Assembly: GCA_026770585.1 (NCBI GenBank)
Contig: MU646710.1
Coordinates: 175,559-198,827, forward strand
DNA from: Baffinella frigidus
Taxonomy: Eukaryota > Cryptophyceae > Cryptomonadales > Baffinellaceae
DNA: 23,269 nt
Direction: 5' to 3'
In this document: positions 192 to 22,908 of the stretch, in pieces
Position numbering within the stretch: position 1 is the stretch's first letter
Layout: each line of letters starts with the position of its first letter
The notes under the pieces: model-generated
Seen by the model: the letters and a program-made list of their open reading frames with translations, nothing else
What the model was told of the DNA's origin: nothing
Database searches by the model: none
Made by a program: the position numbers and the translations under genes

Positions 192-251
192 CTTGGCTGC
201 GCGGTTCGCGTCGTCGAACTCTTTCCGCTGCGCCGCAGAGGCTTTCTCCGC
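192..251 (-). CDS. gene A exon 5 (20 codons)
   Basis: Acceptor CTCAG at 256-252 and donor GTAAAC at 191. Encodes AEKASAAQRKEFDDANRAAK. Partial 5' copies at 463-482 and 541-573. The gene must continue further left, outside the window. Confidence 0.6.
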
Positions 252-3200
252 CTGAGGGGAGGCGAAGGTGCAGGGTTCAAGGTTTAGGGTTTAGGGTTGA
301 GGGTTTGGGGTTTGGGGTTCGGGGTTTGGGGTGTGGGGTTTGGGGTTTGGGGTTTGGGGTTTGGGGTTTGGGGTTTTGGGTTTTGGGTTTTGGGTTTGGG
401 GTTTGGGGTTTAGAGTTTGGGGTTTGGGGTTTAGGGTTTAGAGTTTTGGGTTTGGGGTTTGGGCCGCAGAGGCTTGCTCCGCCTGAACACCCCGCACAGA
501 TATTGGGTAGAAACCCGTCCGATTGGCAGAGTAAAGATGACTCTTTCCGCTGCGCCGCCGAACCTTTCTCCGCCTCAACACCCCATGCGCAGGTTTTAGG
601 TACTCGCCCGTCCGATCAGTACCGGGGAAGCCTCTGGTCCCATCGAATCACGACCAGACCACACTATGGGCCCGTCCTCGTACGCAGCCACCCGCGTGGC
701 CAAGATTCCGGGTTTCGGGCTTCGGGTTCGGTTTCGGGTTTCGGGTGGCGACCTGCTTAGCGTTGTACACAGCCAGGCGCTTGGCGTCGGCAACCGCCTC
801 CTGCTTGCGCTCCGTGTCCCGCTGGTCCTGGTCAGCGCGCGCCTCCTCGATAGCCTGCGAAGGACGGGACGAGGACGTGTCAGTACTGACGTGAGGACGG
901 GATGAAGACGTGTTGGTACTGACGGCAGGACGTGATGAGGATGGGATGAGGTCGTGTTAGTACTGGCGTCAGGAAACGCAGCCTCCTGCTTGCGCTCCAC
1001 TTCCTGCCGATCCTGGTCAGCGCGCGTCTCTTCGATAGCCTGCGAGGAAACCTTGCATGTTAAAAACGGTTCTGGTTAAGGGCCTATTCCTTTGGATGCA
1101 TCAGCGTGTGGCTCCGGAATCGAGCATGGTCAGTGCGCGCCTCCTCGATAGCCTGTCAAGGACGGGATGAGGACGTGTCAGTACTGACGTTAGGACGGGA
1201 TGGGGACGTGTCAGTACTGACGTCAGGACGGGACGAGGTCGTGTCAGTACTTCTCAATAGCCTGCAACGGAAACGCTGCAGGTTAGAAAACGCTTACGAT
1301 TGTAGACCAGCCGGACAGTTTTCGAACCTGCGGAGAGAGAGACCACCGACCGGGGGTCTGTCTCCACTATTTTCACCAACCGACAACACCGCCCCGGCCC
1401 CGCCTAAAATAAACAGGCCTTTACACCAGAAACTTTGCGTACTACTCAAAAGTCGTACTAGTCAAAACTCACCGTACTAGTCAAAACTCGTGACACTGGT
1501 CAAAAGTCACCCGTGGCACTCTTACTGGTCAAAAATCGTTCTTGGGGCGAGGGGCTCGCAACCTGGGCGTGGACCGCATCCTCCTGATGGCGCTTGACCG
1601 TGTACTGGCGCTCTATCCGCGCCAGCTTCTCCTGCGTGGTTAAGGTGCCTCTTCGTTAGGATAGGGTCTCGTCCGTATGAGGGTCTCGTCCGTACGTTAG
1701 GATAGGGTCTCGTCCGTACGTGAGGATAGGGTCTCGTCCCTACAGTGCGCTGCATATCCAGAGATTTTGTAAAAGTCGATTCACCAACAAAATCTGTCAA
1801 CTTAGAGACGAGGTACCCGTAATGGGTACTTCGAAAATTGATTTTAGCCTTGAGTTGACTCATACAAAAACTCCGCCCTGGCAGTGCTGGGGGTCTTCAC
1901 CAGGACATGGTCTGGTCCGGAAAATGAACTTATTAAACAAATTAAGAGGAAAACTCGACTATAACATTTGAGAAGATGAGGAATATTTCTTATTTTCTTA
2001 AATACGGATTGGATATAAATCCCTTTGTAGCTGTGTGGGTCAGCGTGACCGTGTACCGGCGCTCTATCCGCGCCAGCTTTGCCTGCCGCGCGCCCCAGGA
2101 CTATCAGAATCGCAACGGTTGTTCGTATGCGAATCGGAGCAGGTTTTCGTGTGAGAACCAGCACGGGTTTCGTATGAAAATCGGAAAGGTTTTCGTAGGG
2201 AGCATCGGAGCAGTTCTCCCACGAGAGCCCTGAAGATCGTGGTGACGAAGGAAAGGAGCAGCTCCTTGCCTCCGCGTCGCAGGAAAACCCCAAACCCCAA
2301 CCTCAACCTCCAACCTCCAACCCCCAACCCTCAACCCCAAAACCCTGAACCGGAAACACAAGCCCTCACCTGCGACGCGCAATCTCGGCCATCGCAGTGA
2401 GGGTGTAGGGTTTGGGGTTTAGGGGTTCGGGTTTGGGGTTCTGAGTTCAGAATGCAGGGTGCAGAGTTCAGGGTTTACCTGCGAGGCACGAATTTCGGCC
2501 ATCGGATTGAGGGTGCAGGGGTTGGGGTTTAGGGGTTCGGGTTTGGGGTTCAGGGTTCAGAGTTCAGGGTTCAGAGTTCAGGGTTCAGGGTTCGGGGTTC
2601 AGAGTTCAGGGTTCAGAGTTCAGATTTCAGGGTTGAGGGTACAGGGTTTAGGGTTTACCTGCGAAGCACGGATTTCGGCCATCGCCTTGCGCATCACCGC
2701 CTTCTTGTACCCATGGTGTCTGAGAGCGTTTTGGGTTCAGGGTTGGGGTTTCGGGTTTCGGGTTGGGGTTTAGGGTTTAGGGTTTAGGGTTTAGGGTTTA
2801 GGGTTTTAGGTTTAGGGTTTAGGTGCCTGATCGCGACTTACCCTCGGTTAGGTCCCTCAAACCTTAACCATACACCCTAAACCCGACGTCTGCTGTAGCT
2901 CGTTTAGGGTCCAGGGTTCAGGGTTTAGGGTTTAAGTTACAGGGTTTAGACCCTCGTCACAGACAGAATAAGGAGTATCAAGCTTCTTCCTCCACGCGGG
3001 AGGGGCGGAATATTCTCAAGTTGACATGCCTTTTTATTTTTTGAAGAAACGTCAACTTCGGAGCGGGAAAGAGACTAGAGCTGCGCGGCAAGGCAGGAGC
3101 GAGGCGCTCCCCTGTCTAGCGCTGTCTCAGTCTATTCGGGCTCAACAATTTCGTGAGACCGGGCGCGTTTTTGCCCCAAAGTTTACAAATTTGTACCCAA

Positions 3201-4275
3201 AAACTCAGGATGCCAACTTGAAAATAGTGTGACAGCCAACCCGAGTCAGGCAGAGCTAGACTGTGCACGCGTCCCGGGAGCGGGTCAGTGAGACTGCTCG
3301 TGCAGATTTCAGGGTTCAGGGTTCAGGGTGCAGGGTGCAGGGTTTAGGAGTTTGGATAGGGTCTCACTGCTCAAGCCCTTGAGTACAAGCAGGCGGTGAA
3401 GCGCAATGCGACGGCCGAAACCCGCGCGCGGCAGACAACACCCTAAAAATAATGTCATTTGTCCCGGACGGCGAGCGGGTCTCGCTGCACAGTTAACAGT
3501 CATGGGGCGCGCACGACCCTAGGAAACTCCGAAGCGCCACCCTACACCCTCAACCCTACACCCCTGAAACAGACTGCACTCACTGCTCAAGCCCGTCGAA
3601 GAACAAGGAGGCGTCCTGCTTCTCCTGCGCCACGCCGTAATGCCGCGCGCCCGCCCACGGCGTGCGGTGCACCTCCGCGTGGTACTGCTTCCTGTACTTG
3701 TGCATCTCCAGCTGCTCGATCTTCCGCATCCAGGCCTTCGCCTTCGCCTCCACCTTCCTCCCCCCGCTGAGCGCGGGCCCCGGGAGGTGGCCCAGGGAAC
3801 CTGGGGAGGTACGTGGGCGCCGGGCTGGGAGCCGCACAGGGTGCGCTGTTCGCTGCTGCTGGCGCGGCGCGAAGTGCGTGGCGTGATGCTGCACCGCGCG
3901 GGGCAGCTGGCGGAGCACAGCCTGGCGGGCTGCGACCAACGCCGGCGGGTGGCTGGGTGCGGCGGCGCTGGCGGAGGAGACCACCGGGACCTTGGCCGAC
4001 TGCTGGAACGGCTTCGCGGGGCTCTTCTTGGGCGCGGTGGCGATGAGAGAGGAGACCCACGCATGGAGCTCAACACCATCCCTGCCGATTTCCTTGGCTG
4101 TCGGGAAGAGTGATTTGGCAGCCGCCGTCTCCTCCCAGTCCAGCGAGCGCTCCCACTTGTCCGGGTGCACCTGACGCACCAGCTCAACCCGTCCGGCTCC
4201 TTGCCGCACCACCACGACACATAGCACAGCCAGTGTTAGGAGCGCGAAGGGGAGCACCCCTCTCATCCCCACCAT
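192..4275 (-). CDS. gene A: membrane-anchored coiled-coil-like protein of unknown function, 3' incomplete
   Basis: I do not recognise this protein. Five exons can be joined in frame: 3584-4275, 2659-2719, 1563-1631, 753-854 and 192-251, about 328 residues, continuing beyond the left edge. Near the N-terminus is one hydrophobic stretch (VLPFALLTLAVLCVVVV), a signal peptide or signal anchor. Then comes an Ala/Pro/Arg-rich low-complexity stretch, and after it charged heptad-friendly sequence (AWMRKIEQLEMHKYRKQY; EKLARIERQYTVKRHQ; AIEEARADQDQRDTERKQ), typical of coiled coils. All joins use GT-AG and compatible phases (A1 leaves CA, A2 supplies the A; all later joins are phase 0). The start is uncertain: ATG at 4275 puts the hydrophobic stretch four residues in, while an in-frame ATG at 4377 would add 34 residues. 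Further exons may hide in the introns. It is divergent from gene B. Confidence 0.6.
463..573 (-). pseudogene. two partial copies of gene A exon 5
   Basis: 463-482 keeps a CAG acceptor and GCGGAGCAAGCCTCTGCGGC; 541-573 keeps GCGGAGAAAGG..GCGGCGCAGCGGAAAGAG but its acceptor has become GAG. Both break off before the donor. Flanks also repeat (AACACCCC..GCGCAG or GCACAG; CCCGTCCGAT), so the duplicated unit reached into the intron. Confidence 0.7.
753..854 (-). CDS. gene A exon 4 (34 codons)
   Basis: Acceptor CGCAG at 859-855, donor GTCGCC at 752. Begins AIEEARADQDQRDTERKQEA and ends AVYNAKQ. Three partial 5' copies with acceptors lie upstream in the same gene (973-1039, 1128-1152, 1250-1261). 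Confidence 0.6.
861..1261 (-). repeat. minisatellite mixed with three partial copies of gene A exon 4
   Basis: Exon copies at 973-1039 (22 open codons, AIEETRADQDRQEVERKQEA), 1128-1152 and 1250-1261, each preceded on the minus strand by CAG. Between them, at 861-965 and 1153-1247, is a roughly 30-bp repeat built on GACGTGTCAGTACTGACGT. The exon starts and the repeat alternate, so acceptor plus upstream intron multiplied together. Confidence 0.75.
1435..1540. repeat. short tandem repeat, unit GTACTAGTCAAAACTC-like
   Basis: Four or five degenerate copies of ACTRGTCAAAA(C/G)TC at spacings of about 19-33 bp, just 3' (minus strand) of gene A exon 3. It resembles the GTACTAAAC/GTCAAC block described in the mutase gene. 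Confidence 0.55.
1563..1631 (-). CDS. gene A exon 3 (23 codons)
   Basis: Acceptor CAG at 1634-1632, donor GTTGCG at 1562. Encodes charged helical sequence beginning EKLARIERQYTVKRHQ. The 5' half with its CAG acceptor is duplicated at 2044-2082, where it reads AKLARIERRYTV. Whether another exon lies between this one and exon 2 is not clear. Confidence 0.55.
1657..1742. repeat. minisatellite, unit about 25 bp
   Basis: Three to four copies of AGGATAGGGTCTCGTCCGTA with small variations, immediately upstream (minus strand) of the gene A exon 3 acceptor. Confidence 0.75.
1743..2043. other. intron of gene A without a recognised element
   Basis: About 300 bp of more A+T-rich sequence. No convincing exon, repeat array or RNA gene seen. 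Confidence 0.5.
2044..2082 (-). pseudogene. partial copy of gene A exon 3
   Basis: On the minus strand a CAG acceptor is followed by GCAAAGCTGGCGCGGATAGA and a reading AKLARIERRYTV before similarity stops. It matches the first half of exon 3 with few changes and has no donor. Confidence 0.7.
2370..2504 (-). pseudogene. two partial copies of gene A exon 2 3' end
   Basis: 2479-2504 reads MAEIRASQ before GTAAAC; 2370-2396 reads MAEIARRQ before GTGAGG. Both keep a usable donor but lack the acceptor half. With true exon 2 there are three donor-bearing copies in about 300 bp, spaced by GGGTTTAGGG/GGGTTCAGGG repeat. Confidence 0.75.
2402..2960. repeat. telomere-like repeat (GGGTTTAGGG/GGGTTCAGGG) in gene A introns
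   Basis: Long runs of GGGTTCA, GGGTTTA and GGGTTTC units on the plus strand, broken by the exon 2 copies and exon 2 itself. The minus (sense) strand of gene A therefore carries the C-rich form. Confidence 0.85.
2659..2719 (-). CDS. gene A exon 2
   Basis: Acceptor CTCTCAG at 2726-2720 and donor GTAAAC at 2658. Reads HHGYKKAVMRKAMAEIRASQ after completing the split Gln codon of exon 1. Its 3' end with donor is repeated at 2479-2504 and 2370-2396, and an inverted copy lies at 3381-3434. Confidence 0.6.
3008..3262. mobile_element. dispersed element with inverted ends (AAGTTGACAT family)
   Basis: Inverted ends ATTCTCAAGTTGACATGCC (about 3012-3030) and GGATGCCAACTTGAAAATAG (3208-3227). The right-hand part, 3168-3262, aligns with 21218-21312 inside the mutase gene, including the tail CCCGAGT.AGGCAGAGCTAGA, and with the minus strand of about 20846-20905. 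No transposase reading frame. It is nonautonomous. Confidence 0.6.
3364..3434. pseudogene. exon 1-end copy fused head-to-head with an inverted exon 2 copy (gene A)
   Basis: 3364-3379 on the minus strand repeats the end of exon 1 (GGGCTTGAGCAGTGAG). Directly beside it, 3381-3434 on the plus strand reads EYKQAVKRNATAETRARQ, clearly homologous to exon 2 (YKKAVMRKAMAEIRASQ) but in opposite orientation. Confidence 0.65.
3584..4275 (-). CDS. gene A exon 1
   Basis: Open frame of 230 codons plus two bases, ending ...FFDGLE and CA before a good donor (GTGAGT at 3583-3578). It holds the hydrophobic anchor, the low-complexity middle and the start of the charged helical region. The unspliced frame would stop immediately at a TGA in the intron, which supports the donor. 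Confidence 0.65.
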
Positions 4276-4533: not shown

Positions 4534-4941
4534 ATGATGGACTACGCGGGATCCATGGCGCGCGTTGGCCCGCCTGCGCCTCCGCCGCAGCCACCGGTGC
4601 CGATCTGGCTTGTGTCCACTCTTTTTTCGCTGGTGCTTATTGCGTCACAGGTGCTACCTGTGCTGGACGTGCAGCGGTCGGTCGGCGGCGCCGTGAGCTC
4701 CGACTACGCCATCGGGTCGTTCTGGGGCTGGGTGTGGTGGCTGCTCACCAACGGCGAAGTGCTGCTCGGCGTGCTCATCGGCCTCGTCCTCGGGCTGTGG
4801 GGCTACCTCCGCGTCCTCCTCGTGGTCGCAACCGCCTCCCCGCGCGCGGTGCTCCTCACCCCGGAGCAGCGCAAGTCGCGCCTCTCGCTGCTCCGCGACC
4901 TCGGCTCCGTAACGTTCTTCTTCCCCGCCGCCCTGTTCACG
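4534..4941 (+). CDS. gene B exon 1
   Basis: 136 codons, phase 0 end (TTC ACG before GTACTC at 4942). Proline-rich N-terminus (PPAPPPQPPVP), then helices IWLVSTLFSLVLIASQVLP, GEVLLGVLIGLVLGLWGYL and LGSVTFFFPAALF. G+C-rich with strong third-position GC bias, unlike the following intron. Confidence 0.75.
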
Positions 4942-7854
4942 GTACTCCCCTGAACCCTCAACCCGAAACCCGAAACCCGAAACCCTGAACTCTGAACCCT
5001 GAACCCTGAACCCTGAACCCGAAGCCCGAAGCCCGAAACGTGCCGTCAAACGTGTTCAAGTTTGCCCATGTCCACGTCAATAATCAAATAATGGGGTCGC
5101 TCCCACGCCAGATTCTTGGAAGGAGTTACCAAAAGTCAATTTCCCCTCAAGGCAGTGGTTTTCAAAAGTTAACACACACCACAGGTGGTGTTTAAAAAAA
5201 TCCAACTCCCGCATCCAATCTGGCGTGGTCCAGGTGGTCGCAACGGTGCGAATGGCCGAGCCGGAACCGACGGGGGGATCCGAGTGGTTGCATGTCTCGC
5301 TCCTCACGGTCGCCCCCCACACCCCAAACCCTGAACCCTGAACCCTAAACCCTAAACCCTAAACCCTGAACCCTGAAACCTAAACCCTAAACCCTGAACG
5401 ACGGGGGGGTCCGAGTGGGTGCATGTCCCGCTCCTCACGGTCGCCCACCACACCCTAAACCCTAAACCCTAAACCCTGAACCCTGAACCCTAAACCCTAA
5501 ACCCGACCCTGAACCCTGAACCCTGAACCCTAAAACCTAAACCCTAAACCCTGAACCCTGAACCCTAAACCCGACCCTGAACCCTGAACCCTGAACCCTA
5601 AAACCCAAACCCTGAACCCTGAACCCTAAACCCTGAACCCCAAACCCTTTCAACTACGCAAAGTAAACCCGAAACATTTGAGCAGGGCGGTACGCTGGCG
5701 TTCATCGCGGCGGTGCTGGGGCAGTGGGTGGGCACGCTGCTCACCATCTTCGTCACTAACAACTTCAAGGTCCAACAACCCCTAGACCACGCAGGCCTGT
5801 TGTAGGGGGGGATTCAATTTGTACCGCGAACCTTGGAATTGGAGCGTGTTTGCATAATCGTACGAAGATTTAGACCAAACGGCTCCAAGAAACACGTGTT
5901 TCCGTGAGTGGGGACGCTGTTCACCATCTTCGTCGCCAGTAACTTCAAGGTGCATCTACACCCTGTGTTGACTCCGAGGAAAACTCAACCCCTAAACCCT
6001 GAAACCCACACCCCAAACAATAAAACCCCAAACCCCGAACCCCAAACCCAAAACCCCCAAACCAGGTCGGGATATCGGCGCTGTCCCGGGAGGCGTGCTA
6101 CGACGCCGGGAAGGACTCGGACGATGCTCAGGTTGCTTCAGGCTTTAGGCGTTAGGGTTGATGGTCAAATTCCGCCCGAAACCGACCAACCCTAGACCCT
6201 TAACCTTGTCTCTCTGGATCGTGGTACCCCCCCCTCAGCCCTTGGATCCCGTTAATTGCGTGTCGCGGGAGGCGTGCTGCGACACCGGGAAGGACTCCGA
6301 CGACGCTGAGGTTGCTTCAAGCCTTTTGAACCCTAACCCCTCGACGTTAAACGCTAAACCCTAAACCCCAAACCCCAAACCCCAAACCCCAAACCCCAAA
6401 CCCCAAACCCCAAACTCCAAACCCCACACCCCAAACCCCCAACTCTGAAGCCTGAAGCCGAAAGCCTAACGCAGGAGCACCGCGAGCGGGTGAAACGCAA
6501 CGTGCTCTTCTCTCTCTGGATCGTGGGGACCAACACAGCGCTGTTTGCAGCGATGTTTCTGCCGGCGGCCTACGTCTCCTTCTACCAACCAGGTTTGCAC
6601 CTCTACCGTTCTCCCTAGTAACACAGGTTTCCTTTTGCTTTGAGACGTCCCACTGCCGACTTTTGTCTCGGGGGTGGAAACCATAAAACCCAATCCCGCA
6701 ACCCTCACCCTCAACCAGACGACAGCACGGCGGCGGCGGCCGGGGGTTTCCCGCTCTCTATCCCTAAACCTTCAACCCTGAACCCTAAGCCCTAAACCCT
6801 GAACCCTAAACCCTAAACCCTAAACCCTAAATCCCAAACCTCAAACCAGACGACAGCACGGCAGCGGCCGGAGGATTCCCGCTCTCGATCCCTAAACCTT
6901 CAACCCTAAACCCTAAACCCTAAACCCTAAACCCTATACTCTAAACCCTAAACACTAAACCCTAAACCCTAAACCCTAACCCTGACACCAGGCGACAGCA
7001 CGGCGGCGGCCGGGGGGTTCCCGCTCTCGATCGCGGACGCTGTGGGATACGCGTGGCGCACGGGCCACCTCCGCGGGTGCACCCCCAAGCCCCACCCATC
7101 AGTCGACTACGGATCTCATCCCCACAGGCATTTAAATTAAATGCTCGAAATGCATAATTTGGCCACTTCAGGCAGAATCTGACGCCAAAAGTATGCATTT
7201 CGAGCATTTAATTTAAATGCCTGTGGGGATGAGATCGTGCAAGACCCCCGCATCTGGGGGGCAAGTGCAAGTGTGTACCGGGAAAGTGCGAAAATAAGTA
7301 GAATTGAACGAGACTACGAAAGCCGGAGGGTCCCCGCTTTCTATCGCGGACGCTATAGGATATAGGATGGTTTCCTGGCGTACATGACACCTCCGCGGGT
7401 ATCACCCCTAAACCCTAAACCCTGGATTTTGAACCCTACACCGCAATCCCTCAAATGCTGTGGGTACGCCTGGCGCACGGGCCCCCTCCGCGGTAGGTAT
7501 CAACTCTACCTCGGGTTTGGTGTTTCGGGTCCAGGGTCCAGGGTTTGGGGTTTGGTCAACCCTGAACCCTGAACCCCAAACTCTAAACCCTCAACTCTCA
7601 ACCCTCAACCCTGAAAGCTGAACCCTAAACCCCACATCCCAAACCCTAAACTCCCAACTCCCAACTCCTAACTCCTAACCCCAACTCCAACTCCTAATCC
7701 CAAACCTTAAACCCCAGGATCGGCGAGGGGATCAGCCCGGACGGGTGGGGGAACAAACCGCTCGCGGTCCTGGGGGCTGTCTGCATCGAGGCAATTCCCG
7801 CTCCCTTCCTCCCTCCCTCTCTCCCTCCCTCCCTCCCTCCCTCCTCGTCTCTCG

Positions 7855-7903
<49 letters not shown>

Positions 7904-8839
7904 GGGGGCTGTCTGCATCGAGGCAACCCCCCCTAAACCCTAAACCCTGAACCCTAAACCCTCAACCCCGAACCCGAACCCCGAACCCCGAAACCCTCAA
8001 CTTCAAACCCCGAACCCTAGGCAATCCCCGTGCTGACTGTGTCCTGAATCGTAAACCCTAAACCCTACACACCAAACCCGAAAGCCTAAAGCCTAAACAC
8101 CAAACCCCAAACCCCCAATCCCAGACCCCTAACCCCTAACCCCTAACCCCTAACTCCTAACCCCTAACCCCTAACTCCTACCCCCTACCCCCTACCCCCT
8201 ACCCCCTAACCCGAAACCCTGATCCCAGGCGATCCCCGTGCTGACGGCGGCGGGCGAGACGGGCGTCTGGCTTCATCCGCGAAAACGATGAACAACAATC
8301 GTTCTCTGGCAACGAAAATTACTACACAAATACTCAATTACTACACAAATACCAACGAAAATTACTACACAAAGACTTACCATTTCTAGCATGATGCAAC
8401 TGTGTAGTAATTTTCGTTGTGCCCGAAAGCGATTAAATTTATCCGTTTCCCCGGGCGATCCCCGTGTTGTCTGCGTCCTAACCCCTAACCCCTAACTCCT
8501 AACTCCTGCCCCCTAGCCCCTAACCCCTAACCCCTAACTCCTAACCCCTAACTCCTGCCCCCTACCCCCCAACCCCTAACCCCCTACCCAAAACCCCAAA
8601 CCACAGGCAATCCCCGTGCTGACTGCGTCGTAACCCCCAACCCCTAACCCATCACATCAAACACCAAACCCTAAACCCTACACCTTAAACACCAAACCCC
8701 AAACCCCAAACCCCAAACCCGAAACCCCAAAGCGCAGGCGATCCCCGTGTTGACGGCGGCGGGGGTGACGGGCGTCTGGCTGTTTGGGGAGGCGATGGGG
8801 GATGAGCGCCGCTGGCGATGGTACCGTCTCTCTCTCTCT

Positions 8840-8883
<44 letters not shown>

Positions 8884-14160: not shown

Positions 14161-14238
14161 ACCTCGGTGGGAGAGAGCTGGCCCCAGGGTTCCGTGAGGG
14201 AACTCCAAGGCTCGAGGCAGTCCACGACACGGGGTCGT

Positions 14239-14527: not shown

Positions 14528-14690
14528 TACAGGGTACCTCGTTCATAGGAAAACGCCACCGCCCTAGGACCACCGTAGGGCCCTAGGGGTGGGCCTACTG
14601 TAGGGTTCTAGGGGGCGTATACGAAACCGCCTGCAACTCCCGCCAGCTCATAACTAGGGCGATGTTTTCCTATGAGCGAGGTACCCTGTA
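14528..14690. mobile_element. MITE copy inserted in the zinc-finger sequence
   Basis: 163 bp, TA-flanked, terminal repeats CAGGGTACCTCGTTCAT and ATGAGCGAGGTACCCTG. Its left end abuts the interrupted finger linker. The insertion also has an internal duplication of the CCTAGG core. Confidence 0.8.
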
Positions 14691-15059
14691 CGTAAGCTAC
14701 TCGCCACTTAAGGGATACGCGCCCCCAGGGGGTGGACAGGGGGTGCAGTGGGCACGCGTGCCCTTGCAACTCCCCCCAGTTTGGCGTGCCCAGAAACACG
14801 GGGATTGCCCCAGCCGTCAGAACCTACTGATGCCACGGTAGGAGGTGGAGTTAGAATCCATCCAGAAAATGCTCGTATGAGCGGCCAACACGGGGTACAG
14901 CAGTGGCACAATGCGTAGCATGTGGGGTGATGACGCTGTTTCTTTGGCAATAAATGATCAATCTCTCTCTGCCACCGCGCGCCTACTGCACCCCCTCCTG
15001 CATCGTCTTGTAGAAGCGAAAAGACAATGGCCGATCTACCCCGAAGCGGGCCTATCCCA
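14691..15059. other. intergenic region, nothing recognised
   Basis: No exon, repeat family or RNA gene that I can support. A 129-codon minus-strand frame crosses it, but without similarity or helical pattern. Confidence 0.5.
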
Positions 15060-15395
15060 CTACACCTCTGCGCCATCCTGCGCGCCACCAGCCGCAAGCA
15101 TCCCGACCTTCAGAGCCTCTGAGGCTCCTGAAACCTGCGCGCCTCCTGCTCTTCGAGAGCGTGCACCCCTCTGCCCGACAAGAGCCTGGCAGGGTCTGCT
15201 GATCCCACAGCACTCATCATCCCCCTCATCGTCCGCAGAGCAGAGGCAGAGCGCGCAGCAGACGATGGCAATCGCGATGATCACGACCAGTGCCCAGGGC
15301 GAGTCCGCTGGCGTTGCTGGGCTTGGAGTCGTGGTGACCTCGGAAGCAGTCACAACTCTCGCGAGAATCAGCGCGAGAAGCGCCGTGCGAGTCAT
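15060..15395 (-). CDS. possible small single-pass membrane protein
   Basis: Not recognised. From ATG at 15395 the 111-residue frame begins with a signal-peptide-like MTRTALLALILARVVTAS, then a short Thr/Pro-rich stretch, a transmembrane helix (WALVVIIAIAIVCCALCLC), an acidic ADDEGDDE and a basic/Ala-rich tail. The order signal peptide, short ectodomain, helix, charged tail argues for a type I membrane protein. An in-frame ATG at 15485 would put 30 unlikely residues before the signal peptide. No intron is needed, unlike the other genes here, so chance cannot be excluded. Confidence 0.4.
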   Translation of the reverse strand: MTRTALLALILARVVTASEVTTTPSPATPADSPWALVVIIAIAIVCCALCLCSADDEGDDECCGISRPCQALVGQRGARSRRAGGAQVSGASEALKVGMLAAGGAQDGAEV

Positions 15396-15732
15396 CACAC
15401 AGTCAGCTTTCCGTGACGCGCAACGAGTTGAGCTTCCTGGTAGGAGCTGCGAGTCAGGAGGTGACCTTAATGGGCGGCAGGGCATCGTTGCGCAAGGGGG
15501 TTTGCCTGCCTGGTTTTTGTACCCCTGTCCTGGAACCCTGGTCTAGTCAGGGTACGCGATCTCACAGCGCACTGCTGGCAAGGACACGGGCGGGCACCGT
15601 CAGCAGTTGCAGACAGGATGCTCCGACGTGGAACGCGGCTGGCGCTGCTGCGCACTGCACCCCGATGCAAGACACAATTCAGGCTGAAGTGGTCAAACGT
15701 GGATTTTAGAATTTGACCATTTTCATCAGGCT
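15396..15732. other. intergenic region, nothing recognised
   Basis: About 340 bp; likely holds the promoter of the minus-strand gene ending at 15060. No specific motif is supported. Confidence 0.4.
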
Positions 15733-15911
15733 CGCAACCTATTTATTTATTTATTTATATAATTAGTTTTGTAAAGTAACTCGTTCTGGTACAAATTATA
15801 AAACAAGGTCCATTTAAAACTAAAAAGGGCTCCAATTCATTTTTAAACGAGGTCTTGTTTTATAATTTGTACCAGGAACGAGTTACTTTACAGAACTAAT
15901 TATAGGTTGCG
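15733..15911. mobile_element. 179-bp foldback element with arms of about 60 bp
   Basis: Outer ends CGCAACCTAT and ATAGGTTGCG, then ATAATTAGTTTTGTAAAGTA and its near-perfect complement. The left arm alone carries a (TTTA)n expansion at 15740-15758. No reading frame. Confidence 0.8.
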
Positions 15912-15956
15912 CCGATATTAATTTTGGCATGGTCGTTATCCCTCTCACTTTGTTGG

Positions 15957-16230
15957 TTATCCGTGATTGAAGCTCTTAAACTTCAACCATGGGATACCAT
16001 GAGCCTCATTAAGGCTGACTTGGGTTCGGTGCGTGGGCGGGCGCAATCCTACTTGGAAGCAATCAAACACCCCAAGAGAACCACCCAGTATCCCCTCTTC
16101 ACGAGCCTCTGCACTGGAGAGCTAAACGCGATCCGAAAGCAAAAATGCCTTTTCTGCAGGTCTTTTCTACGGAAAGGCGTGTCGTTGGGCCATGTTGGGA
16201 GCATTTAAAACCTAAAGGACCTAAAGGTTT
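15957..16230 (+). repeat. diverged copy of the 13116-13460 region
   Basis: Similar to 13116-13460 over patches (CCGTGATTGAAGCTC, GGGATACCATGAGCC, CCTAAAGGACCTAAA). Between them is a 69-codon frame 15999-16208 (MSLIKADLGSVRGRAQ..). Its counterpart at 13300-13450 has similar residues (LCTGGLDVVRK against LCTGELNAIRK) but stops elsewhere. It could be a relic of a coding repeat. Confidence 0.5.
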
Positions 16231-16236
16231 CAAGAG

Positions 16237-16536
16237 ATGCAGGCGGATCTGGCGATGGTGGGGCGTAAACGGGGGCGGGAAGATCCGCCTAGCAAAGGAG
16301 CGAGTGAAGGCTCTAGTGGGCCGATCAGGAGGGGGCGGGACGTGGCGGGCAGCAAGGTTCTTTTTGAGTGCACCATCTACGGCAAGGGCTGTTCGCGATC
16401 CGACAGCCTGACGGTACACATGCGCTCGCGTTCCGGCGACCACACCTACCCCTGCACCACCTGCGGCAAGGCCTTCTCGACGTCCCGCAACCCGACGAGG
16501 CACTGCAGACAAGTGCATGCTCTCGGTCAGGAGTGA
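16237..16536 (+). CDS. short C2H2 zinc-finger protein
   Basis: ATG at 16237 opens 99 residues: a basic N-terminus (VGRKRGREDPPSK), a degenerate first finger (CTIYGKGCSRSDSLTVHM, second Cys displaced), an SGDHTY linker and one canonical finger (C-TT-C, 12 residues, H, 4 residues, H). Probably a nucleic-acid-binding protein if expressed. From about 16340 on, and past the stop codon to 16590, it matches the inverted fragment at 14190-14527. Such a short unit with one good finger may itself be a remnant of a longer array. Confidence 0.5.
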   Translation: MQADLAMVGRKRGREDPPSKGASEGSSGPIRRGRDVAGSKVLFECTIYGKGCSRSDSLTVHMRSRSGDHTYPCTTCGKAFSTSRNPTRHCRQVHALGQE

Positions 16537-16599
16537 TGACATGCGCTGGTGAACGGCTTCGTGTCGTGGACTGCCTCGAGGCTTGGGTTCCGTATCAAT

Positions 16600-17060
16600 C
16601 ACGGTCGCTCTCTCAGTCGTGTGTACACATGTATTTCCACCCCTGCGAGGAGTCCCCGCCGGAACACGCCCGCTGTGGCGACCCCTTCTGGTGAAGTCAA
16701 TCCGGTCATCCTACACGGGACTGTATCTCCAGCTCCGGTCATCCTACACGGGACTATATCCCCAGATCCCTGCTGTCCCTGCTCGCCCTAACGGACCTGG
16801 CCCGCCACAATCCGTGGCGAACCATCCTCTCCCCGGCCCGCCACAATCTGTGGCGAAGGCCTCCCGCCAAAAAGTATCTACACCCCCCCCCGCGCGCCGC
16901 TCTCTGACCCAGGGGCGCTGGTCGGTGCCCTCCTGCCGGCTGCTCTCTCGAGAGCTGCGGCCCTCCACCGGCCCATCCGCGCGAATGGGCCGCTAGCGAT
17001 AGCGATCGCTCGGCAGGCGTGTGACCCGTCCTGCACCCCCCCCCCCCACCCTACGAGCGA
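16600..17060. repeat. intergenic region with two short tandem duplications
   Basis: CCGGTCATCCTACACGGGAC occurs at 16702 and 16735 (period 33). The hairpin CGCCACAATCCGTGGCG at 16803-16819 recurs at 16839-16855 (period 36). Otherwise no feature seen. Confidence 0.7.
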
Positions 17061-17115
17061 CACGATGTGCTCAGACGGCAGGCGTCATGCGCTGAATGCT
17101 CAGAAGCGAGACGCT

Positions 17116-17219
17116 CTGACGCGCTGGAGCTTCGAGACGACTCCCTTGCTGACGCCTGCCTCGTGTGTCAGACACTCGGTCTGAGAGCAAGATGCTTAGA
17201 CGCGCTCGAGCTTGCTGAC
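17116..17219 (-). pseudogene. two copies of the mutase gene stop-codon region
   Basis: 17116-17141 and 17195-17219 repeat the end of the last exon (CTTAGACGCGCTCGAGCTTG at 17253-17272). The second keeps the TAA. They lie downstream of the functional stop. Confidence 0.7.
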
Positions 17220-17253
17220 ACCTTCCGCGTGCCCTCGTCCGACTCGGTCGACC

Positions 17254-17337
17254 TTAGACGCGCTCGAGCTTGGCGACGACCTCCCGGACCGCGAGCGGGA
17301 TCCGCGTCCCCGGCCCGAAGATCGCGATCGCCCCGTC
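17254..17337 (-). CDS. methylmalonyl-CoA mutase exon 11 (last)
   Basis: 27 codons and TAA; acceptor TTTTGCAG preceded by GTACTAAACTGTGGAC. Reads DGAIAIFGPGTRIPLAVREV then VAKLERV, the normal C-terminal end of the family. Reading through upstream is also open for a while but runs through relic copies. Confidence 0.93.
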   Translation of the reverse strand, partial: DGAIAIFGPGTRIPLAVREVVAKLERV

Positions 17338-20300
17338 CTGCAAAAGTCCACAGTTTAGTACTAGCAGCGCCCCGTCCTTCAAAAAAAATTGACAGTTTAG
17401 TACCAGCGTCAACTTTGTGGATCGCCCCGTCCTGGACCGCACAGGTTCATCTCTGAGAAACGAAACAATACCCAAAGTTGACGCTACTGGTACTAAACTG
17501 TCAACTTTTGGCACAGGACGGCGCGTCCCCGGCCCGAAAATCGCGATCGCCCCGTCCCGCAAAAGTCGACTGTTTAGTACCAGTAGCGCCCCGTCCTGCC
17601 CCAAAAGTTGACAGTTTAGTACCAGATCGCCTGAGATAGAATGTGAGGTGGGATCTGTTAGAGGGTAGCGGGATGCGCGTCTCCGGCCCATCGTTTACAA
17701 GGGTTATAGACATATATACACCCTCAACAATACATACACCATTTTTCAGAACTTTCACGATACATAACACCGTCACACATACACCAGATATCCTGAACAC
17801 GCACACCACATGTTCTCATCATCTTGGCCACGGGCCCACCTCAGGGTTGATCAAACTTCAAAGTCGCTTCATCAACCTGGTTCATCAAAATTCAAAATCC
17901 AAAATCATGCGGAGGGGCAGACCTTGTAGAGCTGGTCGTAGTCCTGCTCCGGGATCACTCCTCCGACGACCACCTGTTTTCGTGTTTGGAGTTTAGGGTT
18001 TAGGGTTTAGGGTTTAGGGTTTAGGGTTTAGGGTCTAGGGTTCAGGGTTCAGGGTTGAAGGTTTAGGGTTTAGGGTTTAGGGTTTAGGGTTTAGGGTTTA
18101 AGGTTCAGGGTCTAGGGGTTAGGGTTTAGGGTCTAGGGTTTAGGGTCTAGGGTTTAGGGTCTAGGGTCTAGGGTCAAGGGTCTAAGGATTAGGGTTTAAG
18201 GTCAGGTTATGGACCTTGGGGGCGGAGGAGAGGCCGTTCTTCTTGGCGAGGTCGTTGAGCTCCTTGACTAGCGCCGGGATCAAGGTCCTGTCAGGAGTTC
18301 CCCGCATCCCGATGAGTAAGTAGTTGAAATAATGATCAGGGCGGGGATCAACGTTCTGCGGAGTACAGAAGAAGAAGAGTTCATAAGTGTACTCTACATG
18401 TTGTGTCCGTGTCCAGTGTTTCCCCCTGGTGTGAGTTTGTGGTTTCCACAGTCGAGAGAGGTCGTTGCGCTCCTTGATAGGATCAACGTCCTGTCAGAAG
18501 TTCCCCGCACAAATCGGCAGCAAACTCCCCAGGATAGATAGTCCACACGGTGTGCTTCGCAGATCTGTCCATTTATGTTCGTGGTACTAATTAATAATTG
18601 CTCGGTACAAAGACATTTAATTAAGCGACATTTCACCCGAATGTTCGTTGCGCTCCTGGATCAGCGCGGGGATCAACGTCCTGTCAGGAGTTGCCCACAC
18701 CACCGTCAACACATCTAACACGGAAACGGATTTATTTAACAACACCATTGTTTGTTATCTTAAGGGTGGAATTCGCTATTTTAGTCTCGGCATAGCATTA
18801 CCACAGAAAAAACTTACCTCTAAGATAGCGAAACGTTATTACAAAATTTCTCTGTTTCCAATGAGTTGAGCGTCCTGCGGAGTACCCAGTCAACAGACCA
18901 ATCTCATAGGAAAACGGTTTTGATTCAAAACTTTCTGGCAATGAAATTTACTACACACAATGTGTTTTACTAGTAATATTAAAGCATTCGTGTAGTCACT
19001 TTCATTGAATCCAACGGTCTTAGATTAAGCCCGTTTCCGCATGAAATCGCGGAGAGTGCAGAAAGGGGCGGGACCTGTGCCCCGGGGCGAGGGTGGACAC
19101 GCCGGATTGAGGCATTACGGTTTAGAGTTTAAAAATGGTGACCTGTGCCCGGCGGCGAGGGTGGACACGCCGACGCAGTGCACGTCCGCCTGTTTGGGGT
19201 TTAGGGTTTAGGGTTTAGGGTTTAGGGTTTGAGATTTGGGGTTAAGGGTTTAGGGTGTAGTGTGTAGGTTTTAGGTTCCAGGGTTTAGGGTGCAGGGTGT
19301 GAGGTGTAGAATGTAGGGTTTAGGGTTGAGAGTTTGGGGTTTAGGGTTGACCTCGAGAGCCTGGACCGCCACCTCCGCGGGGGTCTGGAAGAGCGGGCCT
19401 GCGCGCAGGGGTGCACTGTGTGTCAGACTCTAATCACTGTTAGGGGTTATGATTGGGGAGGGTTCGGGGCCCCGCACAGGGCCGCAGCACGGTAGGGTGT
19501 TTGGGGGTTTCGGGTGTAGCGAGTAGGGTGTAGGGTGTAGTGTGTAGTGTGTAGGGTATAGGGTGCAGTTTGTAGTGAGTAGGGTGCAGGGTGTAGGGCG
19601 TAGGGAGTAGGGAGTAGGGTGTAGGGTGTAGGGTGTAGGGTGTAGTGTGTAGTGTGTAGGGTGTAGTGTGTAGGGTGTTGGGTGTAGTGTGTAGTGTGTA
19701 GTGTGTAGTGTGTAGTGTGTAGTGTGTAGTGTGTAGTGTGTAGGGTGTAGTGTGAAGGGTGTAGTGTGAAGGGTGTAGGGTGTAGGGTAGGGTTGAGAGT
19801 CTAGGGTGCAGGGGTTGGAGGGGCGCGCACCGATGTCGACGTCGAAGCCGAGGTCTGCGAAGCCCGATGCGATCACCTGTTGTTGAGGGTTTCGAGTTTG
19901 GCTTTTGGGGTTTAGGCTGTGGGGTTTGGGGCTTTGGTCTTTGGGTTTTGGGTTTTGGGTTTTGGGGTTTGGGGTTTGGGGTTTGGGGTGTGGGGTGTGG
20001 GGTTTGGAGGTAGGGGTTCAGGGTTAAGGGCACTGTGAAGATTGACAGTGGGGATAGTATAGGGGACAGTACCGGAGTCGAAGATACAGAGCCGACTGGA
20101 CGTTGGGACTGTCAGTGGCAACAGTTCAGGACACTTGCAAGTACAGTCATGACGTGACGGTATGTACAATACAACTGTACAATACACTGTACAACTGTAC
20201 AACTAACTGTACAACCGTAAAATTAACGGTACAACTGTAAAATTGTACAACGAACCGGACGCGCCAGTACAAATAAGGACGTGACGCGCCTGTTCGACAG

Positions 20301-22793
20301 TACATCGAGGACGTGACGGCGTGTACAGTACTGGACGCGGCAGTACAAACCAGGACGTGCCACGGTACTAAACACACTATCTTGTCCTTCATGGGCACAC
20401 CTTCTGGCCGCGGTCGTGGCCGTCCTGCCCCATCTTCGCCACCAGGATCCGCGGGCGCCGCCCCGCCTATTTAGGGTGTAGGGGTTGGGGTTTGGGGTTG
20501 GTTTGGGTAGGGTAGAGATTTGGGTTTGGGGTTTGGGGGTTGGGAGGAGAAGCAGCGGCCGGGGGCCCGGCTACCGTTACGCCAGCCGTTACACCAACCG
20601 TTACACCAACCGTTACACCAACTGTTACACGTTGCATCAGCCGTTACACCACTTCCACGACGCAAGATTTTTTCGCGAAGCGAGCGAAACACCGCTCGCG
20701 GCGTCAATCAGCCGGGGGCGGGCGTCCATTCAGGGTCCAAGGTTTCGAGTTTGAAGTTTGGGGTTTTGAGGTTTGGGGTTTGGGGTTTCGTGTTTTGGGT
20801 TTCGGATTTCGGGTTTCGGGTTTCGGGGTTAGGGTCGCCAAACTTGGACTATTCCAAAGTCAACATCCTGGGTCTTTGGTACACATGCGTCAACTTTTGG
20901 GGTGAAAAAGACCTCGGTGGCAAACTTGTCGACGGCCTCGCGGGTCTTGAGGATCTCGTCCGTCTCGCCGAACTCTGACGCGTACGCCCCGCCCACCACG
21001 CTCGTCCCACCCTGAATCAAAGTTGATGGTGAGCGTGTGCGCAGCTCAGAGTGCGAGTGCTTAGCGTGCGCGCGTTCGAGCTTGTGCGCAGCGTAGGGTT
21101 CAGGGTGCAGGGTTCCACGCTCGTCCCGCGCTGCGCGGTTGGTGTAGGGTTTAGGAATTCACCTTGATCGCTCTCTTAAAGACTGATTCGGTCCTGTCAA
21201 TTCGGTGCGCGCCCGCTCATTTCCCCTCCAAAGTTGACAGATTTGTACCACGGACCCAGAAAGTCAACTCGAGAATAGTCTGCCAGTCAGCCCGAGTGAG
21301 GCAGAGCTAGAAACCCTGAAGGAGACCTGGTGGCGGCGGAAGACGTTTCCGAGATCTCGCCGAGAGTGGAAACAGTAGACGAATCTTCGGGTTTCCAGGT
21401 ACAAAGCCTGTCATCGTCCCGGTACAAAATGGTGCGGTTTAGTCAAGTGCACCTGGTGGCGACCGAAGACGTCGGCGAGAGTCTCGGAGATCTCCCCGAG
21501 GGTCGCGCGCGCCTTGCCGGCCACAACCGCCAGTTCCAGCAGGTTGCGGGGGGGGGGCTCGTGCGCGCCGATCTGCAAGAGGGGAGGGAGGTGAGGGGCG
21601 AGGCGCATTTATCGGGTTTCGGGTTTTGGTTTCGGGGTTTCGGGTTTTCGGTTTTCGGGTTTCGGGCTTCGGGTGTAGGACCGCAGCCTCCTTGAAGGCG
21701 GCGAGGCAACGCTGGACCGCTGCATCTTAGCGGTCTTTGGAAAAGTCAATGTGTGTCGACTTTGCATACCCAGGGGGACTGATTTCGGGGGGGCGGTGGG
21801 GGCGGACCGGGGAGCGAGACGAATGGCTGTTTTTGAGGTGTAGGGTGTACGGTTCAGGGATTGTGGTTTGTGGTTTCGGGTTTGTGGTTTGTGGTTTGTG
21901 GTTTCGGGTTTAGGACCGCAGCCTCCTTGAAGGCGGCGAGGCAACGCTGGACTGCTGCATCTTAGCGGTCTTTGGAAAAGTCAATATATGTCAACTTTGC
22001 ATACCCAGGGAGACTGATTTCGGGGTGGTGGTGGGGGCGGACCGCAGCCTCCTTGAGGGCCGCGAGACAGCGCTGGACCTCCGCCTCGTTGCGGGACGCC
22101 TTCACGGCAGTCAACTTCTTCACCTGATGGGGAAAAGATCGAGGGTTGTTTATTCAGGTATTGCAGCTGAGCGGGACTACAGAAAACCACCAAACCTGTA
22201 GCCCGACCGAAAGGTTTAGGGATGAGAGAGACGCGCCTGTTATGGACGGGGGGGGGGGAGCGTTTCTGGAAGACAGCAATGCACCTCCGGGAGAGGCGTG
22301 TACGGATGCACTCGGAGACACCCCTCAACCCTCCCCTCAACCCTAAGCCATGACCCCTAAACTGTAAGATCTAATCTCTAAACGCTAAACACTAAACCCC
22401 CGAGCCCTAAGCCTCAAATCACAAAACCCCTAGACCCTAAGCCTTGAACCCTGATTCTCTAAGCCCTAAACCCCAGAAGCCCTAATCTCTTAAACCCTTA
22501 GTCCTAAACTCTGAACCCCTCAGCCACAAGCCCTCAACTCCTACGCCCCTAAGCCCTAAATCCCTCAGCCCTAACCCCTCAACCTCCAAACCATAACACC
22601 TCAACCCCTGAACCCCTGTACCCCTGTACCCTGAGACCCTCAACTGCTGAGAACCCCTGACCCCTAACCCCGAAACCTGGAGGGCATGCACGGAGGCGTT
22701 ATCGATGATGCGCGCCTTGACGCGGTTGTCGTCCTTCTCGAGGATGAACTTGTTCATCCCGACCACCACGTCCGTCCCCGCGTCCAGCCGCGC
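17254..22793 (-). CDS. methylmalonyl-CoA mutase, C-terminal 276 residues (5' part outside window)
   Basis: Adenosylcobalamin-dependent isomerase converting (R)-methylmalonyl-CoA to succinyl-CoA in propionate and branched amino-acid breakdown; mitochondrial in eukaryotes. Eleven exons join in frame: 22677-22793, 22043-22123, 21453-21572, 20913-21011, 20401-20466, 19831-19876, 19352-19398, 19143-19189, 18215-18287, 17923-17973, 17254-17337. Diagnostic pieces: VVVGMNKF, QRCLAALKEAA, NLLELA.., ARATLGEISETL, GAYASEFGETDEI, RRPRILVAKMGQDGHDRG, FADLGFDVDIG, PLFQTPAEV, GVSTLAAGH, VVVGGVIPEQDYD, AIFGPGTRIP. The B12 signature DxHxxG is DGHDRG (exon 5); 41 residues later comes STL; 32 residues further GG, about five more than usual (insert near KKNGLSSAPK). 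Alternative relatives (isobutyryl- or ethylmalonyl-CoA mutase) are less likely given the FGPGTRIP tail and eukaryotic context. Confidence 0.93.
17341..17690 (-). pseudogene. intron 3'-end/exon 11 start copies with shared branch-point block
   Basis: Copies of the exon 11 start (GACGGGGCG) at about 17369-17378, 17416-17432, 17521-17557 and 17586-17598, and of its middle at 17663-17690 (GPETRIPL). Most are preceded by GTACTAAACTGTCAAC and a T-run. At 17521-17557 the acceptor has mutated to CGG. Confidence 0.8.
17923..17973 (-). CDS. methylmalonyl-CoA mutase exon 10
   Basis: 17 codons, acceptor AACAG, donor GTCTGC, phase 0. Reads VVVGGVIPEQDYDQLYK with the GG motif of the B12 fold. Confidence 0.93.
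17990..18210. repeat. (GGGTTTA)n telomere-like array in mutase intron
   Basis: About 30 heptamers, many perfect, on the plus strand; the sense strand of the gene has CCCTAAA. Confidence 0.95.
18215..18287 (-). CDS. methylmalonyl-CoA mutase exon 9
   Basis: Phase 2 in, phase 0 out; acceptor GACAG, donor GTCCAT. Reads TLIPALVKELNDLAKKNGLS then SAPK; the last residues form a short insertion relative to usual family spacing. Confidence 0.92.
18334..18874 (-). pseudogene. four partial copies of mutase exon 9 5' end
   Basis: 18334-18355, 18461-18490, 18644-18680 and 18868-18874, each after CAG, begin RACGTTGATCC and read TLIPAL-type sequence before breaking off. With exon 9 itself there are five acceptor-bearing copies in about 660 bp. 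Confidence 0.85.
18722..18859. mobile_element. foldback element, GGAAACGG family, diverged
   Basis: Begins GGAAACGGATTTATTTAAC and ends CTGTTTCC; an inner inverted pair TCGCTATTTTA/TAAGATAGCGA. It lies between two partial copies of mutase exon 9. Confidence 0.55.
18909..19038. mobile_element. foldback element, GGAAACGG family
   Basis: Ends GGAAAACGGTTTTGATTC and its complement; inner CAATGAAATTTACTACAC against GTGTAGTCACTTTCATTG. Same layout as the element at 8280-8450. Confidence 0.7.
19075..19105 (-). pseudogene. partial copy of mutase exon 8 end
   Basis: GGCGTGTCCACCCTCGCC then CCGGGGCACAG/GTCCCG: GVSTLAPGH with an intact donor but no acceptor half. Confidence 0.8.
19143..19189 (-). CDS. 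methylmalonyl-CoA mutase exon 8
   Basis: Phase 0 in, phase 2 out; acceptor AACAG, donor GTCACC. Reads ADVHCVGVSTLAAGH and carries the SxL motif of the B12 fold. Confidence 0.92.
19352..19398 (-). CDS. methylmalonyl-CoA mutase exon 7
   Basis: Phase 1 in, phase 0 out; acceptor GCGCAG, donor GTCAAC. Reads PLFQTPAEVAVQALE after completing a Gly. Confidence 0.92.
19500..19830. repeat. (GTGTAGGGTGTAGT)n subtelomere-like minisatellite
   Basis: About 300 bp of GTGTAGG/GTGTAGT heptamers on the plus strand, starting at the exon 6 donor. A variant of the telomere-like repeat. Confidence 0.9.
19831..19876 (-). CDS. methylmalonyl-CoA mutase exon 6
   Basis: 15 codons plus one base, acceptor CAACAG, donor GTGCGC. 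Reads VIASGFADLGFDVDI. Confidence 0.92.
20040..20400. repeat. intron rich in TGTACA palindromes
   Basis: AACTGTACAA and CAGTACA motifs recur about fifteen times at 20155-20375, with GGACGTGACG interspersed. No exon seen. Confidence 0.65.
20401..20466 (-). CDS. methylmalonyl-CoA mutase exon 5 (cobalamin ligand)
   Basis: 22 codons, acceptor AATAG, donor GTGTGC. Reads GRRPRILVAKMGQDGHDRG; the His of DGHDRG is the lower axial cobalt ligand in this family. Confidence 0.95.
20566..20655. repeat. 12-bp tandem repeat CCGTTACACCAA
   Basis: Five to six units in the intron between mutase exons 4 and 5. Confidence 0.85.
20913..21011 (-). CDS. methylmalonyl-CoA mutase exon 4
   Basis: 33 codons, acceptor GATTCAG, donor GTCTTT. 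Contains VVGGAYASEFGETDEIL, the linker just before the B12 domain. Intron sequence on both sides carries the GTCAAC/GTTGAC block. Confidence 0.92.
21218..21312. mobile_element. second copy of the AAGTTGACA dispersed element end
   Basis: Aligns with 3168-3262 (CAAAGTTGACAGATTTGTAC, CTCGAGAATAGTCTG, CCCGAGTGAGGCAGAGCTAG). It lies in the intron between mutase exons 3 and 4. Confidence 0.65.
21327..21367 (-). pseudogene. partial copy of mutase exon 3 end
   Basis: CTCGGCGAGATCTCGGAAAC..CGCCACCAG/GTCTCC matches the exon 3 end with an internal deletion of about 12-13 bases. The donor is intact. Confidence 0.75.
21453..21572 (-). CDS. methylmalonyl-CoA mutase exon 3
   Basis: 40 codons, acceptor TTGCAG, donor GTGCAC. 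Encodes NLLELAVVAGKARATLGEIS and ends LADVFGRHQ. The first eight codons include a run of ten C, so the exact start may be misread, but the frame is open. Confidence 0.9.
21682..21957 (-). pseudogene. two copies of mutase exon 2 3' half (period about 235 bp)
   Basis: 21682-21725 and 21917-21957 read VQRCLAAFKEAA and keep the GCG/GTCCT donor. About 90 bp of upstream intron (CTTAGCGGTCTTTGGAAAAG.., GACTGATTTCGGGG) is repeated with them. Confidence 0.85.
22043..22123 (-). CDS. methylmalonyl-CoA mutase exon 2
   Basis: 27 codons, acceptor CATCAG, donor GTCCGC, phase 0. Helical segment VKKLTAVKASRNEAEV then QRCLAALKEAA. Confidence 0.9.
22320..22676. repeat. degenerate CCCTAA array, reversed polarity
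   Basis: CCCTAAG, CCCCTAA and CCTCAAC variants on the plus strand, up to the donor of mutase exon 1. Unlike the other arrays of this minus-strand gene, the C-rich strand here is antisense. Confidence 0.8.
22677..22793 (-). CDS. methylmalonyl-CoA mutase exon 1 of 11 in window
   Basis: 39 codons, phase 0 both sides, acceptor GAGCAG, donor GTTTCG. Starts ARLDAGTDVVVGMNKFILEK and ends IIDNASVHALQ: the VG.NK region before the linker to the B12 domain. A start-only copy lies at 22882-22908. Confidence 0.9.
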
Positions 22794-22881
22794 CTGCTCG
22801 AAAGTTGACGGATGAGTACCATGAATCCATCATGTCAACTCAACAACAGTCCTCGAAGGTAAACATCCTCGAGACCACTTC

Positions 22882-22908
22882 TGCGTCCGTCCCCGCGTCC
22901 AGTCGCGC
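22882..22908 (-). pseudogene. partial copy of mutase window-exon 1 start
   Basis: GCGCGACTGGACGCGGGGAC then GGACGCAG repeats the first nine codons; the acceptor has become AAG. Confidence 0.75.

Follow-up and report, generated by a model that had tools for sequence, protein, structure and literature searches.

Serial partial copies of exon edges in introns of the cryptophyte Baffinella frigidus and their possible origin in local duplication

Intron lengthening is usually attributed to transposons. The locus described here raises the question of how introns come to hold repeated, partial copies of the exons that adjoin them. The window, which is the whole stretch of DNA analyzed, has a length of 23,269 nucleotides and is nuclear DNA of the cryptophyte Baffinella frigidus, an Arctic single-celled alga. 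A first-pass annotation had reported that introns of three unrelated genes in this window contain extra copies of the adjoining exon end with its splice site. The extent that it gave for the phenomenon, positions 192 to 22908, is correct.

Exons were placed by splice sites and homologues, namely protein P0121 for gene B, P0125 for gene A, and human methylmalonyl-CoA mutase for the third gene. The gene B model is 99% identical to the annotated B. frigidus protein P0121 (T484DRAFT_1961621) over 100% of the model, and spliced alignment of P0121 by a protein-to-genome aligner returned the identical 12 exons. Gene A, on the minus strand (4275-192), has environmental homologues, and P0125 matches it with 55% identity over 98%. 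The third gene encodes the C-terminal part of methylmalonyl-CoA mutase on the minus strand (22793-17254; match to the human enzyme, E 4e-90), and the DNA neighboring the upstream part of this gene reads N. The window models comprise 28 exons and 25 introns, and the coding sequences of the three genes are each in frame. The status of exon B12 is uncertain because a GT donor is absent and an N gap (12500-12934) lies nearby in gene B; the last residues of P0121 match a reading near 13047, past the gap.

The exons and their copies are as follows, with the strand given as plus or minus.

192-251, minus, gene A exon A5; start copies at 460-486 and 540-575
753-854, minus, gene A exon A4; start copies at 964-1045 and 1127-1155, with a further 57 nt of matching intron flank at the second
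1563-1631, minus, gene A exon A3; start copy at 2043-2086, flank homology not significant
2659-2719, minus, gene A exon A2; copies of end and donor at 2425-2504 and 2368-2395
3377-3447, plus, inverted copy of exon A2 (parent 2647-2716), adjoining the A1 end copy at 3363-3395
3584-4275, minus, gene A exon A1; weak end copy at 3363-3395
4534-4941, plus, gene B exon B1; no copy found of its end
5234-5308, plus, exon B2; copy of end and donor at 5393-5445
5686-5769, plus, exon B3; copy of end and donor at 5904-5964
6066-6131, plus, exon B4; copy of end and donor at 6261-6325
6205-6224, plus, mid-exon fragment of B5 (parent 6475-6592), within the intron preceding B5
6992-7076, plus, exon B6; start copies at 6716-6762 and 6848-6890, end copies at 7322-7400 and 7457-7495
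7718-7790, plus, exon B7 (GC donor); end copy at 7900-7934, GC retained
8738-8820, plus, exon B8; start copies near 8020-8043, 8228-8272, 8450-8474 and 8606-8635, end copy at 9084-9132
9695-9794, plus, exon B9; start copy at 9490-9535, end copies at 10021-10063 and 10247-10290
10393-10533, plus, exon B10; 225-bp tandem unit (exon end and hairpin), 2.5 repeats, to 10990
11636-11753, plus, exon B11; start copies at 11088-11140, 11157-11260 and 11347-11435
12413-12444, plus, exon B12 (uncertain); copy at 12270-12302, weak copy at 12148-12172
17254-17337, minus, mutase exon M11; start copies at 17522-17616 and 17420-17434, piece at 17667-17689
18215-18287, minus, mutase exon M9; start copies at 18458-18509 and 18645-18699, short ones at 18340-18365 and 18850-18885
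19143-19189, minus, mutase exon M8; end copy at 19068-19104
20913-21011, minus, mutase exon M4; weak start copy at 21115-21133
21453-21572, minus, mutase exon M3; copy of end and donor at 21325-21359
22043-22123, minus, mutase exon M2; copies of end and donor at 21678-21733 and 21913-21968, with a 133-bp unit common to both (95%)
22677-22793, minus, mutase exon M1; start copy at 22884-22910, in the intron preceding M1

Fifty exon edges of 40 nt (32 nt for B12) were compared with their own intron and with 24 other introns. At a score of at least 40, the own adjacent intron holds a sense copy for 21 of the 50 edges, compared with 0 of 1200 pairs with other introns. This result upholds the reported exon-edge copies in all three genes. 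Lowering the threshold to 30 gives 22 of 50 edges versus 2 of 1200 pairs, and the two cross-intron matches, at the starts of B4 and M8, appear to be far edges of short exons reached by copies of the opposite edge. Copies at a score of at least 40 belong to 18 of 28 exons and affect 16 of 25 introns (B12 is among the 21 edges), in agreement with the earlier figure of at least 14 exons. Own-intron matches at this score are in sense orientation in 21 cases and antisense in one, which is the inverted copy of exon A2. A single antisense match was also found among the 1200 pairs with other introns, and it is presumably the same A2 copy seen via the other A2 edge.

The copies were collected in three ways. 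A looser alignment list holds 44 alignments, a few of them short of the edge, and misses M8, where the near flank was masked. A list delimited by hand covers 25 edges in 22 exons with 43 copies, some as short as 11-15 nt. A set of 29 copies, which leaves out 8 alignments that stop short of the edge, served for the splice-site, flank, and divergence-by-distance tests. In this set, 15 copies duplicate an exon start with its acceptor and 14 an exon end with its donor, and the first-pass annotation had described both types. Exon content per copy ranges from 11 to 117 nt. Aligned to their parent exons, the copies are about 90% identical (10.6% divergence observed) and thus diverged, and one of them is inverted. 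The 43 hand-delimited copies amount to 1,656 aligned exon-derived bases, or about 11% of 14,337 intron bases, the M1 copy falling outside these intron bases. Some copies are nested or tandem, the tandem units in the window measuring 225 bp (2.5 times), 131 bp, 128 bp, and 110 bp, and each exon is present once in the coding models. A tree-ring order, in which divergence rises with distance from the exon, was not borne out. Among the seven edges with two measured copies, the nearer copy is more similar to the exon at three (B9, B10, and B11) and less similar at four, clearly so at A4 and slightly at A5, B6, and M2.

Genome searches were made in an assembly of 382 Mb and 1364 contigs, which is smaller than the published 534.5 Mb and in which the window spans C402:175559-198827. 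Fourteen matches, not all of them above the cut-off, came from a Pfam search for chaperonins, and the locus with the most exon matches (L051, on contig C94) was chosen before any look for copies. The gene at this locus, CCT-alpha, was modelled in 17 exons with the human TCP1 sequence. Own-intron copies were found for 5 of its 32 edges and in 0 of 480 comparisons with other introns (score of at least 28). A more sensitive search, which had no null of its own, gave nine copies at eight edges. Edge copying therefore extends beyond the window, to an unrelated gene on a second contig. The earlier suggestion of a genome-wide mode of intron growth is extrapolated from four genes, although the heptamer described below is itself very common in the assembly. 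Both the window and the chaperonin gene contain a GC-AG intron, with the donor at 7791 in gene B and at L051:7741 in CCT-alpha. Among 20 further stretches of DNA, 15 were more than 90% N, including 12 that were wholly N. Scans of viral contigs for relatives yielded none that was usable; one scan gave nine pattern matches, none of them confirmed.

The sequence between the copies had been described as telomere-like repeat. This description does not hold throughout, as other spacers consist of hairpins, minisatellites, CT tracts, or unique DNA. In 41 introns of the four genes, CCCNNAA heptamers number 503 on the sense strand versus 52 on the opposite one, and CCCTAAA is the commonest unit (135 of the 503). 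By intron, 36 are C-rich on the sense strand and 5 are G-rich (binomial P 8e-7 if introns are independent); the window alone gives 324 versus 43 units and 21 versus 4 introns. Heptamers cover 20-25% of the first 60 nt of introns and 21-33% of the last 100 nt, compared with 9-15% at a depth of 150-250 nt, and no heptamer of opposite sense occurs in the last 100 nt of the 41 introns. Sense-strand C-rich heptamers packed against splice sites are a new observation here. In the window introns, 23% of the sequence was masked as telomere-like or simple repeat, compared with 0.8% of the intergenic DNA at 12961-17200. Across the genome, a 28-mer heptamer series gave 48,915 + 46,627 = 95,542 matches with at most two mismatches, and its reversed control gave 20 + 16. 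Long CT tracts lie on the sense strand of gene B introns at 7809-7901 and 8827-9084.

On these data, we hold it probable, at roughly 0.57, that exon/intron borders were locally duplicated again and again, through template switching or repair, and that the copies are the decaying and mostly non-coding fossils of these events. Direct orientation and locality, the marks of local tandem or templated duplication, were both found (21 sense versus 1 antisense). Replication or break repair would stall at C/G-rich heptamer arrays or hairpins by the splice site. The polymerase might then switch back and re-copy about 20-120 nt of the exon edge with its splice site, often with filler DNA. The edge-filler-edge product would survive only where the complete exon retains a working splice site, and later rounds could re-duplicate the unit, so that the intron would grow and its splice sites would be pushed apart. 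Duplications would also arise elsewhere in non-coding DNA, and within exons selection would remove them. Copies may be visible at edges because a duplication within an exon breaks the protein, whereas one that spans the splice site need not.

Exon B10 offers the clearest layout of such events. Its end is present three times; the hairpin follows each of the first two, and other intron DNA follows the third. Over its whole length the B10 spacer folds as a single hairpin of -30.7 kcal/mol, a value that has no shuffled control. The nearer end copy is 95% similar to the exon and the farther one 82%. We infer that a first event made an edge-hairpin-edge product and that a later 225-bp tandem duplication added the third copy. 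In a genome search with exon B10 and its donor, three matches were found among the best-scored candidates, and all were local (one probe, one region scored). In helq-1 mutants of C. elegans, G4 motifs cause breaks, and tandem duplications that measure about 100 bp-10 kb and show microhomology and templated insertions bear the hallmarks of polymerase theta (PMC8654963). Template switching or polymerase-theta repair would fit B10, since local direct copies with filler are its expected product.

A related idea, to which we give only a tentative place well below the fossil reading, is a ratchet centred on the junction. Each round would place either a hairpin or C-rich heptamers in sense orientation at the splice site and would copy the exon edge anew; the new site would take over, and the old edge would become an intron fossil. 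The strand bias of the heptamers could come from transcription or from telomerase-like activity. If the ratchet is true, each intron is a record of its own growth, blurred by later rounds.

The strongest rival, though rather improbable, is that any short segment may undergo plain tandem duplication through slippage or unequal exchange, in which the repeats are irrelevant and the edges are what selection has let survive. Local duplicates at a score of at least 36 do occur in 42 of 282 non-exonic intron windows and in 20 of 186 intergenic windows, and copies were found in 0 of 40 overlapping exon-interior windows (at least 60 nt from an edge, and only from A1 and B1); these three rates are only descriptive since the windows overlap. 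Local duplication is thus common in this DNA, and exon edges are struck most (21 of 50 at this threshold), more than the non-exonic intron windows, which speaks against this explanation. The flanks divide in a similar manner. In 13 of 29 copies, the match to the parent continues into the intron flank (P<=0.05), as plain duplication predicts. In contrast, 16 of 29 copies have no significant homology past the splice site despite exon parts that are 79-100% identical, and plain tandem duplication of edge and intron does not obviously explain every copy for this reason. The same 16 copies also weigh against the fossil reading by template switching, as they are sharper than random breakpoints predict unless stalling occurs at the border or flanks are replaced. 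The lack of an age order with distance counts somewhat against the fossil reading and the ratchet as well, and shifts the odds slightly toward plain duplication. The earlier proposal of slippage or break repair that copies the exon edge plus repeat stands in part: direct orientation, locality, and nested or tandem units agree with it without proving it.

An assembly artefact, in which alleles, paralogues, or repeat-collapsed reads were joined by a short-read assembler, is improbable. The genome paper describes an Illumina draft assembled with AllPaths-LG, with a size of 534.5 Mb and 41.1% repeats (PMC9756366). These properties, the repeat-rich windows, and the one N gap at 12500-12934 leave room for such errors. 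Against them, the copies lie about 10% from the exon, differ mutually, and end at differing points; they are seen in two contigs and four genes, and the B10 genome search returned no second full-length exon. Misassembly is unlikely given this divergence of the copies.

Equally improbable is the view that the copies are working elements, such as alternative exons, recursive splice sites, or decoys under selection. In strict register, the GT/AG dinucleotide is retained in 25 of 29 copies, and with short indels allowed, by our own reading, in 28 of 29 (P 0.018). Divergence alone predicts 23.7 in strict register (P 0.35), and among the CCT-alpha copies that reach the edge, the site is kept in 6 of 8 and lost in 2 of 8 by our reading of the alignments. 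Splice-site conservation was accordingly rejected as proof of function. The annotated protein P0121 also uses a single copy of each exon.

The second argument for function is a synonymous excess. With one copy per edge, mismatches between copy and exon amount to 7.5, 4.9, and 14.6% at codon positions 1, 2, and 3. In all 43 copies, 95 of 176 differences are synonymous (0.54), compared with 0.40 for a simulated neutral copy (reached in 0 of 60 runs) and 0.78 expected if copy and exon both coded; this simulation ran at 12.7% divergence versus the 10.6% observed, and a count of all copies repeats shared history. With one copy per edge, the share is 46/94 = 0.49. The simulation gives 0.40+-0.05 for a neutral copy whose parent exon is constrained (P 0.05), and 0.48 when the mutation rate of the exon lineage is doubled (P 0.40). 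Since the 0 of 60 weakened to P 0.05 in this reduced set, codon-position bias was rejected as proof of function. In the main, the copies resemble non-coding fossils, and the excess of synonymous differences suggests that some of them may have coded for a time. After these corrections, no strong positive evidence for a function of the copies seems to be left in the sequence.

Very improbable is the idea that the introns were born when an exonic AG|GT segment was duplicated in tandem, that they were later enlarged, and that the copies are scars of this birth. Junctions often have an AG|G context, and this route is well supported elsewhere (PMC3443670). The splice site of each copy is of the same kind as the parent edge, which counts against intron birth, and the birth signature (intron start equal to next exon start, or intron end equal to previous exon end) was rejected, with 0 of 41 introns at 11/16 or more. 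Identity in the two registers is 4.20 and 4.46 of 16 versus a null of 4.04 and 4.44. Gene B intron 7, in which a GC donor is followed by bases like those of the next exon, first hinted at intron birth.

Insertion of a mobile element or introner with target duplication can be given as little weight, as the duplicated tracts are long and locus-specific with cross-intron edge matches in 0 of 1200 pairs, even though hairpins occur in introns and spacers and an abundant terminal-inverted-repeat element lies in intron B11. This MITE-like element is present at 11910-12035 (intron B11), 13477-13597, 14045-14160, and 14528-14690. Its end, GAGCGAGGTACCCCTGTA, has 9,977 + 9,874 matches in the assembly with at most one mismatch, and the control has 0.

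Several known systems resemble the Baffinella copies in part. Tandem-duplication intron gain under the AGGT model shares short direct exonic duplications with splice signals; there, the duplication creates an intron with copies of crossed type, whereas the Baffinella copies are of the same type and lie inside existing introns (PMC3443670). Gap-filling insertions likewise place inserted DNA between direct repeats; those repeats are described as short, whereas the Baffinella ones run from tens of nt to 117, usually include the splice site, and are serial. Direct repeats near intron borders also sit at exon/intron borders, but they measure 4-30 bp (mean 11.4) and join the two borders of one intron, while those of Baffinella repeat one border, often several times, within the intron (PMC11782384).

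Amoebophrya introners are repeat-bearing protist introns, some with inverted repeats, and in this respect are similar; they form element families across many introns with 3-5 nt direct repeats, in contrast to the locus-specific edge copies (PMC7789003). Introner membership was rejected, as the copies are not one family (0 of 1200 in other introns; the B10 probe matched only locally), and the heptamers common to many introns are simple repeats. Polymerase-theta duplications of C. elegans helq-1 are also local, direct, and sometimes carry templated filler; they are observed events with junction microhomology, whereas the Baffinella copies are fossils with junctions mostly eroded or in simple repeats (PMC8654963). 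Interstitial telomeric repeats resemble the heptamers as telomere-type units within chromosomes, but those of Baffinella are degenerate, lie mainly in introns with the C-rich strand in sense orientation, and crowd the splice sites (PMC6410037). In a mainly open-access literature, queried partly by organism and mechanism, no account was found of introns that carry exon-edge copies in series, or of cryptophyte introns with heptamers in sense orientation, and this silence is a weak sign of novelty. The main text of the Baffinella genome paper does not contain the word "intron" (PMC9756366).

Steps of intron growth by a route other than transposons may persist here as fossils beside a functional reference, the exon. 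Intron growth may also be tied to repeat-induced repair. Edge copying could bear on the large Baffinella genome, of which the draft (534.5 Mb) is 6.1 times the size of that of Guillardia theta (PMC9756366). Splicing amid several near-perfect decoy splice sites per intron constitutes a natural test. Gene finders should beware of partial exon copies with splice sites, which are frequent here.

Other repeats were observed in the window. An 85-bp element is common to a gene A intron (3176-3260) and a mutase intron (21228-21311) with 80% identity. Long palindromes of 125 bp (7112-7236) and 147 bp (15758-15904) are about 84% self-complementary, and the intergenic DNA at 13116-13277 is a perfect 80-bp tandem duplication. 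Two frames in inverted orientation, 14239-14607 on the minus strand and 16225-16536 on the plus strand, look C2H2 zinc-finger-like by eye, and the stretches 14199-14415 and 16369-16591 are 73% alike.
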